Shown one piece after another: positions 1,961-24,002 of a DNA stretch of 64,000 nt (position 1 is its first letter; the number at the start of each line of letters is the position of its first letter). Source of the stretch: Mucilaginibacter agri (GTDB lineage: Bacteria; Bacteroidota; Bacteroidia; Sphingobacteriales; Sphingobacteriaceae); NCBI RefSeq assembly GCF_009928685.1, contig NZ_WWEO01000039.1:124001-188000 (forward strand). Reading direction: 5' to 3'. The translations under genes were made by a program, and so were the position numbers. The notes beneath the pieces were generated by a model. That model was not told where the DNA came from. It ran no database searches and saw nothing but the letters and a program-made list of their open reading frames with translations.

Positions 1961-3565
1961 TCATTTTTTATACCTCACCCTCACCAATATCCAGATCATT
2001 CCGAGCAGAGCTAAGAACATTCCAAGCTTGGCTAGGTAGTCGCCATGCTTTACGTAGAAAGTAAGGTCAGAGTTTAGATTGATATCTTGCTTAATGGCTG
2101 TGCGTACCCACCAGTTGGTATGTTTAACCACATCGCCACGCTGGTTAATAAATGCCGAAATACCAGTATTGGCCGATTGGCATACCCATCTGCGGGTTTC
2201 AATGGCACGTAATTTGGCATAATCCAAATGCTGGTCTTTGCCTGTTGAGTTTCCAAACCAACCGTCGTTAGTAATAATGGCGATAAATTGTGCGCCTTTT
2301 AATACTGCCTTGCCTACATAATCGCCCCAAATAGACTCGTAACAAATTACAGGATCGCTGCCAATACCACTTTGCGTGTAGAAAACAGCCGGCTCGAGCT
2401 GCCATCCATAGCTTCCGGTTGCACCACCCAAATGAGCAAAAACAGGTTTTAAAAACGATAGCGAACTGAACGGGATGCTTTCGACACCTGGTACTAGCTT
2501 TGACTTGTGATAAAACTGCACATTGTCGGAATTCTCGATGGTGACCGCCGCATTAAATTGATCGAAGTACTGGCCGCCTTCCATTGGGCTGGCGGTCTCT
2601 GTGGCATCATTGTTATATATTTTATAGGTCTCGGCACCAGTGATGATGTTGCCGTTTTTGTACTTATTCAAGAACTGGCGAGCCTGTTGGTAAGAGGCGT
2701 TTGCAAGGACTTTCTCCTCTACAAAAGGATCGGGTATTGCAGTTTCGGGCCATAAAAAGTACTCGGTGTTTTTTTGGCCAATGGAGTCAGAAAGGTGTGT
2801 TAATATACCCAATTGTTGATGAACGGGTATGCTGAACTCTTTTGCATAAGGATCAATATTGGGTTGAGCAATAACCACGTTAGATGGGTTCATCTGCTCC
2901 TGGTAAGAATAATACCTTACTAATGAAAAGCCGACTGGTAGTATTAATACCAGAAAGAATGCTATAATAATTTTTTTGCGGTAGGTTGTGGTTTGAGCTT
3001 CTCTTAAGCTGATATAGAATAGGAATATCAGTATGTTCATTAACCAAATCCAAACGGTGCCACCATATACGCCGGTATACTCGTACCATTGCACCCATTG
3101 GTGGCTTGTTGCAAAGCCGTTACCCAAAGTCATCCATGGGAAGGCTAGTGCCCACGTTTGGTGCAAGTATTCATAGGCGATCCAAAAACATACCAGCCCA
3201 ACCAAACCAACGGTTCGATTGGTTGCTACACGTAACCTAAAATATAACCAGCAAGCCGTTGCCATTAGCAATGGCCCCAACGAATAGGGAATTAACGTAA
3301 TCGGTATGGCAATAACAGCCCCAATTGTTTTAATAGAATTGTATACCCAGTATACAGATAAGGCATTCCACACGAAGCAACCCAGAAAGGTTGTGGCGAA
3401 AATCTGCTTCCCTTTTTTTGTTGATGTAGATTGGATAATGTTTTCCATTGCCAGTAGCATGGGCACCAAACCAACAAAAAGAAAAAAGGTAATGTACTGC
3501 GTAGGCGGCCAGGCCAACCAAAGTAAAAGACCGGAAAATATGGCGAGGAGGAGGTTCTTTTTCAT
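1961..3565 (-). CDS. lnt: Apolipoprotein N-acyltransferase
   Basis: This 534-residue integral membrane enzyme adds the N-acyl chain to the lipid-modified Cys of lipoproteins in the inner membrane. The N-terminal ~210 residues contain six or so membrane segments. From about residue 229 a nitrilase-type domain follows with the catalytic triad visible: E274 in LWPETAIP, K354 in YHKSKLVPG and C408 in VICYESIW. Length is close to the usual 510-540. It lies 9 bp downstream of rsmI on the same strand, so the two probably share a transcript. This fits the many lipoproteins in the window and lspA further on. Confidence 0.95.
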   Translation of the reverse strand: MKKNLLLAIFSGLLLWLAWPPTQYITFFLFVGLVPMLLAMENIIQSTSTKKGKQIFATTFLGCFVWNALSVYWVYNSIKTIGAVIAIPITLIPYSLGPLLMATACWLYFRLRVATNRTVGLVGLVCFWIAYEYLHQTWALAFPWMTLGNGFATSHQWVQWYEYTGVYGGTVWIWLMNILIFLFYISLREAQTTTYRKKIIIAFFLVLILPVGFSLVRYYSYQEQMNPSNVVIAQPNIDPYAKEFSIPVHQQLGILTHLSDSIGQKNTEYFLWPETAIPDPFVEEKVLANASYQQARQFLNKYKNGNIITGAETYKIYNNDATETASPMEGGQYFDQFNAAVTIENSDNVQFYHKSKLVPGVESIPFSSLSFLKPVFAHLGGATGSYGWQLEPAVFYTQSGIGSDPVICYESIWGDYVGKAVLKGAQFIAIITNDGWFGNSTGKDQHLDYAKLRAIETRRWVCQSANTGISAFINQRGDVVKHTNWWVRTAIKQDINLNSDLTFYVKHGDYLAKLGMFLALLGMIWILVRVRYKK

Positions 3566-21723: not shown

Positions 21724-21798
21724 GGGAGCATAGCTCAGCTGGTTCAGAGCATCTGCCTTACAAGCAGAGGGTCACAGGTTCGAATCCTGTTGCTCCCA
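21724..21798 (+). tRNA. tRNA-Val (anticodon UAC), copy 1
   Basis: A 75-nt cloverleaf: acceptor GGGAGCA/TGCTCCC with discriminator A, D stem GCTC/GAGC, anticodon stem TCTGC/GCAGA with loop CTTACAA (TAC at 34-36), T stem ACAGG/CCTGT with loop TTCGAAT. All stems pair. The CCA is not encoded. A hairpin terminator follows, then a GIY-YIG gene and a remodelled copy of the tRNA. Confidence 0.97.
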
Positions 21799-21842
21799 CA
21801 TCAAAAGCCTAACAGAAATGTTAGGCTTTTTTGTTGACCTAA
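21770..21842 (+). repeat. 73-bp direct repeat, left copy (tRNA-Val 3' end plus terminator)
   Basis: It runs from the variable loop of tRNA-Val through the T arm, acceptor, terminator and the first bases beyond (ending GACCTAA). It matches 22136-22208 at 71 of 73 positions by direct reading. The two copies bracket the GIY-YIG gene. Confidence 0.9.
21803..21832 (+). terminator. Terminator of tRNA-Val copy 1
   Basis: AAAAGCCTAACA and TGTTAGGCTTTT pair around a 4-nt loop, followed by TT. The same hairpin recurs after the tRNA-like copies at 22169 and 23635 and after the second tRNA at 23516. Confidence 0.85.
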
Positions 21843-21847
21843 TCTTT

Positions 21848-22096
21848 ATGTATCACATTTATATTCTTCACTCTGCAATACTCGATCGCTATTATATTGG
21901 CTCTACACAGAACGTAGCAGAGCGGTTGCGCCGTCATTTGAGCAATCACAAAGGTTTTACAGCCCGTGCATCTGATTGGGAGTTGGTTTATCAGGAAAAC
22001 TTACCAAATTGGGAATCGGCCCTGATGAGGGAAAAGCAAATAAAAGGTTGGAAAAGCAAGCTAATGATTCAAAAACTAGTTAGCCAGAGAGCATAG
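21848..22096 (+). CDS. GIY-YIG nuclease (UvrC-N/URI type), tRNA-associated
   Basis: An 82-residue single-domain endonuclease. The opening HIYILHS and RYYIGST are the GIY and YIG strands (Y5, Y16); R26/R28 in ERLRRH and E62 in MREKQIKGW complete the catalytic set. The start is ATG at 21848; an ATG at 21818 lies inside the tRNA terminator. The last codons run into a tRNA-Val-like sequence, and the TAG stop (22094-22096) lies in its acceptor/position-8 region. The 73-bp direct repeats on both sides make a compact cassette. It may be a homing-type nuclease or a domesticated relative. The real substrate is unknown. Confidence 0.88.
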   Translation: MYHIYILHSAILDRYYIGSTQNVAERLRRHLSNHKGFTARASDWELVYQENLPNWESALMREKQIKGWKSKLMIQKLVSQRA

Positions 22097-22164
22097 CTTA
22101 GCTGGTTTAGTGCATCCCGATTTTACATCGGGAGTGGTCACAGGTTCGAATCCTGTTGCTCCCA
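22087..22164 (+). pseudogene. tRNA-Val-like copy with remodelled anticodon arm
   Basis: The 5' half is a worn tRNA-Val copy (GAGAGCA TA GCTT AGCTGGTTTA, one acceptor mismatch and a broken D stem). The anticodon arm is replaced by CCCGATTTTACATCGGG, and the 3' half (T arm ACAGG/CCTGT, acceptor TGCTCCC) is identical to the intact upstream tRNA. The first 10 nt overlap the end of the GIY-YIG gene. It is unlikely to be a working tRNA. Confidence 0.8.
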
Positions 22165-22208
22165 CATCAAAAGCCTAACAGAACTGTTAGGCTTTTTTGT
22201 TAACCTAA
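22136..22208 (+). repeat. 73-bp direct repeat, right copy
   Basis: The second copy of the tRNA 3' end plus terminator. It differs from 21770-21842 at two positions (A to C in the hairpin loop, G to A after the T tract). Confidence 0.9.
22169..22197 (+). terminator. Terminator of the tRNA-like copy
   Basis: AAAAGCCTAACAG pairs with CTGTTAGGCTTTT, followed by TT. Between it and the lipoprotein gene at 22474 lies AT-rich sequence in which I see no gene or clear promoter. Confidence 0.8.
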
Positions 22209-23314: not shown

Positions 23315-23436
23315 CAGTCCCCAAACAGCTGGGGAACGATGCTGCACCGGCAGAGCTACCCGTCGATTAATCGGGTCTGCTAGGAAGGCATTCAACATAT
23401 ATCGTAAGTGTTTCCTCTGGGAAATGTTTACGAAAC
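23315..23436 (+). other. Candidate structured leader RNA before tRNA-Val copy 2
   Basis: A 122-nt stretch with successive hairpins: CCCC/GGGG (about 23319-23334), TGC/GCA (about 23341-23353), CCCG-type stem with TCGGG (about 23359-23375) and TTTCC/GGAAA (about 23411-23423). It is much less AT-rich than nearby spacers. It could be a small RNA, or the remains of another tRNA or structured RNA. No family was recognised. Confidence 0.35.
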
Positions 23437-23511
23437 GGGAGCTTAGCTCAGCTGGTTCAGAGCATCTGCCTTACAAGCAGAGGGTCACTGGTTCGAATCC
23501 AGTAGTTCCCA
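23437..23511 (+). tRNA. tRNA-Val (anticodon UAC), copy 2
   Basis: A 75-nt cloverleaf with acceptor GGGAGCT/AGTTCCC (one G-T pair), D stem GCTC/GAGC, anticodon stem TCTGC/GCAGA with loop CTTACAA and T stem ACTGG/CCAGT. It differs from copy 1 in acceptor position 7 and the T stem. It is followed by its terminator and two tRNA-like relics. Confidence 0.96.
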
Positions 23512-23515
23512 CTAG

Positions 23516-23543
23516 AAGCCTAACAGAAATGTTAGGCTTTTTT
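23516..23543 (+). terminator. Terminator of tRNA-Val copy 2
   Basis: GCCTAACA and TGTTAGGC pair around a 4-nt loop, followed by T6. Confidence 0.85.
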
Positions 23544-23547
23544 GTTG

Positions 23548-23630
23548 AAGATACTTTGCTGCGGTTCGGCGGTCAGGGCATCCCGATTTTACATCGGGAG
23601 CGGTCACTGGTTCGAATCCAGTAGTTCCCA
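23548..23630 (+). pseudogene. tRNA-Val-like relic A with remodelled anticodon arm
   Basis: The 3' half (T arm ACTGG/CCAGT, acceptor AGTTCCC, A) is identical to tRNA-Val copy 2. The anticodon region is CATCCCGATTTTACATCGGG, as in the 22.1-kb copy. The 5' half has lost any acceptor complement. No nuclease gene remains between it and the tRNA. Confidence 0.8.
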
Positions 23631-23634
23631 CTAG

Positions 23635-23662
23635 AAGCCTAACAGAGATGTTAGGCTTTTTT
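23635..23662 (+). terminator. Terminator of relic A
   Basis: GCCTAACAGAGATGTTAGGC followed by T6; one loop base differs from the copy at 23516. Confidence 0.8.
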
Positions 23663-23666
23663 GTTG

Positions 23667-23749
23667 AAAATACTTTGCCGCGGTTTGGCGATTAGGGCAT
23701 CCCGATTTTACATCGGGAGAGGTCACTGGTTCGAGCCCAGTAGTTCCCA
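23667..23749 (+). pseudogene. tRNA-Val-like relic B with remodelled anticodon arm
   Basis: It is organised like relic A; the T loop reads TTCGAGC and the 5' half has further changes. No terminator hairpin follows (ACTGGAAGATTAGG instead). From here to 24002 I see no gene or repeat. Confidence 0.78.
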
Positions 23750-24002
23750 CTGGAAGATTAGGAGTGTAATTACTTCAGCCACTTGATATTGATTTTTATT
23801 TTTAATTGTTATCTACTATCTTTATAAATATCATCAAGACTACTCCGCAGTTTTAGAGCCTACTTTTTAATTTAAACAGTTGGCGTCTCCGCGATCTTCT
23901 TTGCAACTAACCACAATTTAAGAATCAGTAAATCCATAACCGGCAAGAAAATACCTTCTTAGCAGTTCCTCCATCACTCGCTTAACCTCAACTTTAGTTA
24001 CT

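Follow-up and report, generated by a model that had tools for sequence, protein, structure and literature searches.

Here we describe a compact GIY-YIG nuclease cassette at a tRNA-Val gene of Mucilaginibacter agri, located in a 64-kb stretch of DNA (the window, to which all coordinates below refer) that forms part of a 5.6-Mb genome. An intact tRNA-Val is followed on the same strand by a terminator-like hairpin, the gene of a single-domain GIY-YIG nuclease, a broken copy of the tRNA and a second terminator-like hairpin. This layout had been described in an earlier note made from the DNA alone, and every element lies where that note had placed it. The features are as follows.

21724..21799, + strand: intact tRNA-Val(TAC), host gene of the element (ARAGORN; Rfam RF00005, 76.2 bits)
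21770..21842, + strand: direct repeat copy 1, comprising the tRNA 3' part and the terminator, 73 bp (repeat detection)
21800..22165, + strand: 366-bp element unit lying between the 3' ends of the intact tRNA and of the tRNA-like copy (direct-repeat spacing 366)
21803..21830, + strand: terminator-like hairpin directly 3' of the intact tRNA, on the element side (inverted repeat)
21848..22096, + strand: open reading frame (ORF) of a single-domain GIY-YIG nuclease, 82 amino acids (ORF and Pfam)
22087..22165, + strand: broken tRNA-Val-like copy (Rfam, 39.9 bits; ARAGORN, "tRNA-Stop (tta)")
22115..22133, + strand: hairpin with a 7-bp stem (TCCCGAT, ATCGGGA) and the loop TTTAC, replacing the anticodon arm (pattern search)
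22136..22208, + strand: direct repeat copy 2, 97% identity (71/73 by count; repeat detection)
22169..22196, + strand: terminator-like hairpin 3' of the tRNA-like copy (inverted repeat)
23437..23512, + strand: second intact tRNA-Val(TAC) (ARAGORN; Rfam, 72.1 bits)
23513..23631, + strand: ORF-less unit 1, comprising a terminator, a spacer, a hairpin at 23582-23598 and a tRNA 3' part (sequence; pattern search)
23632..23750, + strand: ORF-less unit 2, a tandem copy of unit 1, with its hairpin at 23701-23717 (sequence; pattern search)

The boundaries of the 366-bp unit were set by analogy with a comparison of filled and empty sites in Flavobacterium, presented below. The unit holds a single ORF, which starts with ATG at 21848, comprises 82 codons and ends with TAG at 22094-22096. 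The position of this stop codon inside the tRNA-like copy and the agreement of the 73-bp repeats at 71 of 73 positions, both stated in the earlier note, are confirmed by the sequence. The repeat far exceeds chance, and the arrangement recurs at homologous loci.

Two features had been missed: the hairpin in place of the anticodon arm, and the second tRNA-Val with its two ORF-less units. In the first tRNA-Val-like copy the anticodon arm is exchanged for the 19-nt hairpin TCCCGATTTTACATCGGGA, with a 7-bp stem and a 5-nt loop, which rules out an ochre-suppressor tRNA as suggested by the "tRNA-Stop (tta)" call. Moreover, the loop of the hairpin, and often also the 5' half of the copy, vary among relatives, which argues against a suppressor as well. 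A copy with such an arm should be unable to decode. The second tRNA-Val is followed by two tandem 119-bp units without an ORF, each carrying the same hairpin as the first copy; we read them as probable deletion derivatives of the element. The pattern CCCGATN1-8ATCGGG occurs three times in the window (0.01 expected), each time in a tRNA-like copy. A scan of the window against Rfam at gathering scores returned tRNA only and no group I intron structure. The absence of an integrase, also claimed earlier, agrees with our finding that none of seven nearby proteins tested matches an integrase family.

Cassettes at many tRNA genes

A protein search of 120 Mucilaginibacter genomes gave matches in 107, and many of the best matches in this genus begin approximately 35-75 bp 3' of Val, Ala, Leu, Met or Asp tRNA genes on the same strand. 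In the window's own genome, one of six GIY-YIG loci is near a tRNA. We further examined a sample of named genomes consisting of 80 of at least 513 relatives; many of these loci are on contigs of metagenome-assembled genomes (MAGs) with possibly wrong taxonomy, and the locus sets overlap in that the same genomes recur (for example, L012/L059, L014/L058, L016/L060, L018/L063 and L023/L084). In 45 of the 80 loci a tRNA called on the same strand ends no more than 80 bp upstream, and in 61 no more than 700 bp upstream; hairpin-bearing copies themselves account for 4 and 5 of these calls, respectively. An opposite-strand tRNA within 700 bp was found at none of the 80. Loci L092, L104 and L168 contain the ORF and a hairpin-bearing 3' fragment of tRNA-Ala, with no tRNA call upstream, and these cassettes may sit away from a tRNA gene.

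At least 11 tRNA types are represented among the broken copies (Val, Ala, Asn, Met, Thr, Pro, Asp, Leu, Arg, Ser and Glu), a count from which Lys (L066) and Gly (L118) were left out. Ile was dismissed as a host type because the "Ile" calls of L071 and L072 bear the hairpin, as do those of L024 by eye. The hosts are mostly Bacteroidota, and loci with a broken copy are also present on contigs, mostly of MAGs, labelled Acidobacteria, Chloroflexi, Ignavibacteriae, Zixibacteria and candidate phyla. With a checked tRNA type in 53 of the 76 rows, a tree built from 76 proteins and 80 columns requires 15 changes of tRNA type, compared to a mean of 28.2 and a minimum of 25 in 200 shuffles; the resolution of this tree is poor, and relatedness contributes to the difference. 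The search of related genomes proposed in the earlier note, for tRNA genes followed by a GIY-YIG frame and a tRNA-like end, finds the arrangement recurring widely. Duplication of the tRNA is the rule among relatives.

In these relatives the ORF extends into an incomplete copy of the same tRNA and often terminates on a tRNA-derived stop codon. The 3' remainder of the broken copy is often that of the intact local tRNA, a match that holds even where tRNA sequences differ among genomes or between the two loci of the window. Directly 3' of the ORF, a CCCGA-N2-10-TCGGG hairpin is present in 42 of the 80 named loci, compared to 1 of 2059 other windows from these loci and to 1 of 1600 shuffles. When the sequence before the 3' block was taken without requiring a hairpin (18 of 55 loci were dropped because the 3' block was not found), 36 of 37 Val, Ala and Arg copies had a stem of 7-8 bp, compared to a stem of at least 6 bp in 54 of 1850 shuffles. 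Across these copies the stem shows paired substitutions (CCCGA/TCGGG, CCCGC/GCGGG, CCCGG/CCGGG and TTCCG/CGGAA). In most of them the hairpin extends to tRNA position 44-45 and takes over the place of the anticodon arm; elsewhere its end is at 58-59 (6 of 9 Asp rows), at 26-29 (3 of 4 Pro rows) or at 17 or 72 (the four Leu rows having a copy). In Leu and Val copies, approximately 3 nt are replaced by an 18-nt palindrome. An orphan tRNA-Val 3' fragment in genome G002 (L257; G002:C1:1693099-1693145) retains the native anticodon arm and has no hairpin, indicating that the hairpin is no general trait of tRNA fragments. Automatic tRNA finding lists the broken copies as odd tRNAs, such as "tRNA-Stop" or "tRNA-Ile (tat)".

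Tandem arrays are frequent among the matches, with units of approximately 315-370 bp. Examples are five 315-bp units at tRNA-Asp in G410 and five 365-bp units at tRNA-Met in G288, both in single-contig records; G410 has cassettes at its Asp, Ser, Asn and Ala tRNAs. A mirrored order, in which a hairpin-bearing 5' fragment is followed by the ORF and then by the intact tRNA, is found at the Ser and Ala tRNAs of G410, at the Ser tRNA of G250 and in L094, L095, L097, L100, L102 and L105, the intact tRNA of L105 being cut by the contig end. Hairpin-bearing 5' fragments without an ORF lie upstream of intact tRNAs in L011, L013, L015, L029 and L031. In the window, ACCCGTCGATTAATCGGGT is located at 23358-23376, 5' of the second tRNA-Val, in a stretch weakly resembling the 5' part of tRNA-Val, which is possibly a decayed mirrored fragment. 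In Pedobacter jejuensis (L066), four tandem tRNA-Lys calls with a period of approximately 115 bp lie upstream of a broken GIY-YIG frame, and at least the last of the four bears the hairpin.

Filled and empty sites

In Flavobacterium, G260 and G418 have a filled tRNA-Ala(GGC) site beside mtgA that is empty in G335, and G457 has an empty tRNA-Ala approximately 1 kb from mtgA; 4 of 30 mtgA loci carry tRNA-Ala(GGC), and G260 and G418 are the sole filled ones. The terminator 3' of the tRNA in the empty site of G335 corresponds to the terminator 3' of the broken copy in G260 and G418, and the intact tRNA of both filled sites has a different, element-borne terminator. In G260, the T-stem of the intact tRNA is unlike that of the empty sites and the broken copy retains the empty-site version, as expected if the intact tRNA obtained its 3' part from the element. 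The intact tRNA of G418, which has nearly the same cassette, has the empty-site T-stem, and we consider the exchange in G260 suggestive only.

Sites of tRNA-Val that look clean are also present in Mucilaginibacter genomes without a protein match, at 12 of 12 readable sites (13 tRNA-Val sites in 12 of the 13 no-match genomes, one of them unreadable at a contig end). In G002, G083 and G063, the clean tRNA-Val lies approximately 490, 910 and 690 bp downstream of recO, respectively, and shares its strand with recO, the layout also found in the window; a small gene between recO and the tRNA is likewise present in G002 and G083. We take these as empty states of the window's own recO-linked site; 4 of 30 recO loci fetched contain a tRNA-Val. 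Some empty-site terminator types reappear 3' of the broken copy in filled loci (L017, L019, L023 and L027). The two nearest relatives have a truncated ORF (G087) and an ORF-less hairpin copy in an inverted segment (G060). In the latter (L154, reverse complement, approximately 1440-2250), the segment between recO and the next gene, including tRNA-Val and the broken copy, is inverted by comparison to the window and is bounded on both ends by similar terminator hairpins.

The cassettes of G260 and G418 are identical at 240 of 246 positions of the ORF, at 347 of 356 positions of the unit and throughout the 50-nt non-coding left part, compared to 639 of 744 positions of mtgA. At third codon positions, identity is 79/82 for the ORF versus 170/248 for mtgA (Fisher p=3e-8). 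This fits recent horizontal movement of the cassette alone. The earlier note had proposed a compact element that enters at a tRNA gene, restores the tRNA and leaves a duplicated 3' end. The number of tRNA types, the filled and empty sites and the G260/G418 pair bear out its core, and neither of the outcomes that the note had named as refuting was encountered; it requires amendment in that the broken copy carries a hairpin, that the duplicated part can be the 5' part, as in the mirrored form, and that at least one relative lies in a protein gene.

Mechanism and alternative explanations

Taken together, these observations indicate that the tRNA-linked GIY-YIG cassettes are very probably mobile. 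We further consider it probable, if narrowly so, that they constitute a family of minimal homing-type mobile elements living mostly inside tRNA genes. The unit of approximately 320-400 bp consists of a terminator, a GIY-YIG nuclease of approximately 80 amino acids and a tRNA part in which the anticodon arm (or the D or T loop) is turned into the hairpin. According to our proposal, the nuclease, whose target would be the tRNA gene, would cut a tRNA gene free of the element, and repair templated by an element-bearing copy would install the unit. The element-borne tRNA part would complete the host part, keeping one tRNA intact, and the hairpin in the displaced part would mark the insertion point, bar decoding and perhaps also bar re-cutting. 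Arrays and ORF-less units would arise via recombination between the repeats; in the window, the first tRNA-Val would hold an intact element and the second its reduced form, the two ORF-less units. A homing process based on cleavage and repair would account for the empty sites, the restoration of the tRNA, the arrays and the spread between species, and appears likelier to us than the alternatives discussed below.

The Pfam GIY-YIG domain (PF01541; 60.8 bits, cut-off 22.6) spans residues 11-81 of the 92-codon open frame at 21818-22093. In an alignment of 22 sequences, Y5, Y16, G18, H30 and E62 are invariant and R26 is nearly so; the catalytic residues of the GIY-YIG superfamily comprise those of the two motifs, an Arg and a Glu. 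The ratio of nonsynonymous to synonymous substitution rates is 0.05-0.21 in 17 of 47 ORF pairs, which are not independent, the remaining pairs being saturated; these values show that the nuclease ORFs are under purifying selection. A predicted model of the 82 amino acids has a predicted local distance difference test score (pLDDT) of 86 and no further domain. Its nearest solved folds, in listed order, are UPF0213 BH0048 (1zg2), Slx1 (6seh) and then the I-TevI catalytic domain, and a search of solved structures by sequence gave no match at E 0.01. Because the protein consists of the catalytic domain only, structure-guided cutting would fit at least as well as recognition of a long sequence. A phage or plasmid vehicle was rejected: relatives were absent from 50,697 phage records and 72,556 plasmids by tblastn at E 1e-5, and in an IMG/VR scan none of 52 stretches that fit a pattern was confirmed as a relative.

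Several points weigh against homing at tRNA genes. The bare catalytic domain is not accompanied by a separate DNA-binding region, which studied homing GIY-YIG enzymes possess. The proposed mechanism would leave the intact tRNA next to the ORF open to cutting and does not account for its protection; the T-arm motif preferred by the phage nuclease SegB (see below) is intact in both window copies, so that protection by the hairpin would not operate here by destruction of the motif. No tRNA call is present within 700 bp upstream in 19 of the 80 named loci, of which seven are mirrored or start near a contig end and most of the others show no tRNA. Among 105 loci with an upstream tRNA, 9 have no 3' copy and 9 of the other 96 have no hairpin, as surveyed with loose 3' match criteria under which scores from 4 upward are weak and some of the hairpins listed are normal T-arm stems. 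The transfer test was made on a single pair, G260 and G418, and the empty sites could in part be losses via recombination between the repeats. Finally, three loci have homes other than tRNA genes, namely the triosephosphate isomerase gene tpiA (L091) and dispersed repeats (L119 and L122), and these are better fitted by the first of the alternatives.

According to this alternative, which resembles repetitive extragenic palindrome (REP) systems, TCCCGA and TCGGGA are recognised as the termini of the element, and the hairpin represents its form without the ORF; the GIY-YIG protein would move both, and entry into tRNA loops would be one consequence. We regard it as rather unlikely, and it overlaps with the homing model. 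In L107, from a candidate phylum, TCCCGAT and ATCGGGA flank the ORF within the anticodon loop of a broken tRNA-Ala, and a complete tRNA-Ala(TGC) is carried on the insert as well. In L091, likewise from a candidate phylum, a TCCCGAT...ATCGGGA segment with the ORF (2950-3345) interrupts an apparent tpiA start, of which about the first ten codons (MPKKFIVAN) remain, the start overlapping the stop of the preceding gene. A complete tpiA, beginning MDKKYIVANWKMN, lies 3' of the segment and is differently spelled (Pfam TIM, 228.8 bits), as if the element had brought a rescue copy of the tpiA start. In both loci the hairpin arms resemble element termini, and the gene rebuilt in L091 is a protein gene. 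The exchange of approximately 3 nt for a palindrome in Leu and Val copies is consistent with the same alternative. The ORFs of L119 and L122 lie among GTCATTCYGA...AATCTC dispersed repeats, within 300 nt and with no tRNA nearby; these repeats were found in 2 of 80 loci versus 0 of 409 control windows, and a link between the nuclease family and this repeat family is possible. By contrast, in most Bacteroidota loci read, the ORF is outside the hairpin.

The dispersed palindrome TCCCGATN3-5ATCGGGA is present in 100 of 296 Bacteroidota genomes, compared to 3 of 296 for a reversed control pattern, and reaches 45 copies per genome (for example, in G144, G312 and G343). Hairpin density and nuclease count per Mb are correlated over 120 genomes (rho 0.43), and in a 73-genome subset the palindrome is present in 42 of 55 genomes with the nuclease versus 6 of 18 without it. 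However, the correlations are weak and uncorrected for descent, and Y1 transposases show one of roughly equal strength (rho 0.37 against 0.34); part of the counted palindromes belong to the cassettes themselves, and palindromes are present without a nuclease match at E 1e-10 in G401 (19), G320 (11) and G256 (11). REP-associated tyrosine transposases (RAYTs; PF01797, 296 genomes) were considered as the source of the hairpin and rejected by position, their correlation with palindrome count being of similar strength to that of the nuclease; the CCCGA/TCGGG palindrome is absent from 19 of 20 Y1-transposase loci examined up to 1.5 kb on each side. That the hairpin is a plain REP of its own genome was likewise rejected: CCCGAT hairpins in the window are confined to the three tRNA-like copies, and no match to CCCGATAGCTATCGGG with up to two mismatches is present in the window. 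The whole genome contains 28 CCCGATN1-8ATCGGG sites, some of which may be terminators, and these low numbers indicate that a dispersed palindrome is not prominent in this genome.

Tentatively, the observations can be combined into a distinct minimal element class of several phyla, consisting of a structure-selective GIY-YIG nuclease of approximately 80 amino acids and TCCCGA/TCGGGA ends, which would always carry the sequence for rebuilding one intact copy of the host gene, in a manner resembling a natural "home and rescue" drive. Its hosts would be tRNA genes and at least once an essential protein gene, and the dispersed TCCCGA hairpins would be its ORF-less offspring. If so, the class would differ both from sequence-specific homing endonucleases and from integrase systems, and its members would rank with the smallest self-mobile protein-coding elements.

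Integration in trans, in which a tyrosine integrase from another locus would use the tRNA 3' part as its attachment core and the GIY-YIG gene would be a passenger, appears improbable to us. An insertion that restores the tRNA, leaving element sequence 3' of the intact tRNA and native sequence 3' of the broken copy, is the classic picture, and an integrase site could leave an orphan such as the hairpin-free tRNA-Val fragment of G002. Against this, no integrase family was matched by the seven nearby proteins and the unit fits one gene only, which is under purifying selection; furthermore, the mirrored form duplicates the 5' part, and the hairpin is at differing tRNA positions across isoacceptors. 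Slightly less probable still is a function at the RNA level, with the nuclease acting on tRNA, or with the tRNA-like copy acting as a decoy RNA or forming the 3' terminus of the nuclease mRNA. The lack of opposite-strand tRNAs near the 80 loci, the often tRNA-derived stop codons and the paired substitutions that keep the hairpin agree with such a function. However, many broken copies have no 5' half and are unable to fold as a tRNA, the closest folds apart from UPF0213 belong to the DNA nucleases Slx1 and I-TevI, and the PADLOC defence library gave weak partial matches only (best, 17.4 bits), which also speaks against a defence system. Ordinary local tandem duplication of a tRNA gene beside a resident nuclease gene, with no mobility, is very improbable, since arrays of identical units prove that local duplication occurs but the same arrangement at so many tRNA types and on contigs of several phyla argues against it, and it is contradicted by the empty sites with native terminators and by the G260/G418 cassettes being more alike than the nearby gene.

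Comparison with known systems

The results point to a family of miniature mobile elements that has been overlooked so far. If mobile, the cassettes account for duplicated tRNAs and unusual tRNA calls, both in Bacteroidota and in other groups, and would provide a very small system for examining how a nuclease parasitises an essential gene without killing its host. The arrangement is not described in the open-access titles and abstract openings listed by the searches. A 2006 GIY-YIG survey contains three mentions of tRNA, none of them on gene neighbourhood (PMC1564403).

The cassettes share individual features with several known systems. The window differs from a group I intron with a GIY-YIG ORF in that the Rfam scan recovered tRNA only. 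As in tRNA-integrating islands with a tyrosine integrase, insertion rebuilds the tRNA and a partial copy remains; unlike in these islands, an integrase was not found among the nearby proteins tested, the unit is only approximately 350 bp, the partial copy contains a hairpin and a mirrored 5' form exists. RAYTs are thought to move REPs, and the cassettes resemble REP/RAYT systems in that a short palindrome goes along with a nuclease gene and is, in addition, scattered through many genomes. By contrast, a RAYT is a Y1 HUH enzyme rather than a GIY-YIG nuclease, and the palindrome lies here within tRNA copies. Single-domain GIY-YIG proteins of the UPF0213 and Slx1 types are the nearest in fold to the 82-amino-acid protein; Slx1 acts with Slx4 on branched DNA, and to our knowledge these proteins have not been linked to tRNA genes.

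The published system closest to the cassettes is SegB, a free-standing GIY-YIG homing endonuclease of T-even phages that is reported to cut in tRNA genes and to cause nuclease-dependent tandem amplification of a unit of tRNA and nuclease genes (PMC13096335). In that study, which analysed virus homologs, a preferred motif RAWTSGAAC and co-localisation with tRNAs in phages are reported (PMC13096335). The reverse complement of this motif, GTTCSAWTY, is present in the T-arms of the window tRNAs. The two systems have in common a GIY-YIG nuclease near tRNA genes of many isotypes, tandem units of tRNA and nuclease, and microhomology between the 3' end of the nuclease gene and the 5' part of the tRNA. 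In the cassettes, the nuclease gene is free-standing and adjoins tRNA genes, its putative targets, and alleles without the element exist. Unlike SegB, the protein described here has 82 amino acids and is chromosomal, and its unit includes a broken tRNA copy bearing a hairpin. The cassettes may represent a chromosomal counterpart to the tRNA-gene amplification by phage SegB, and their nuclease is a candidate enzyme for a dispersed palindrome family.

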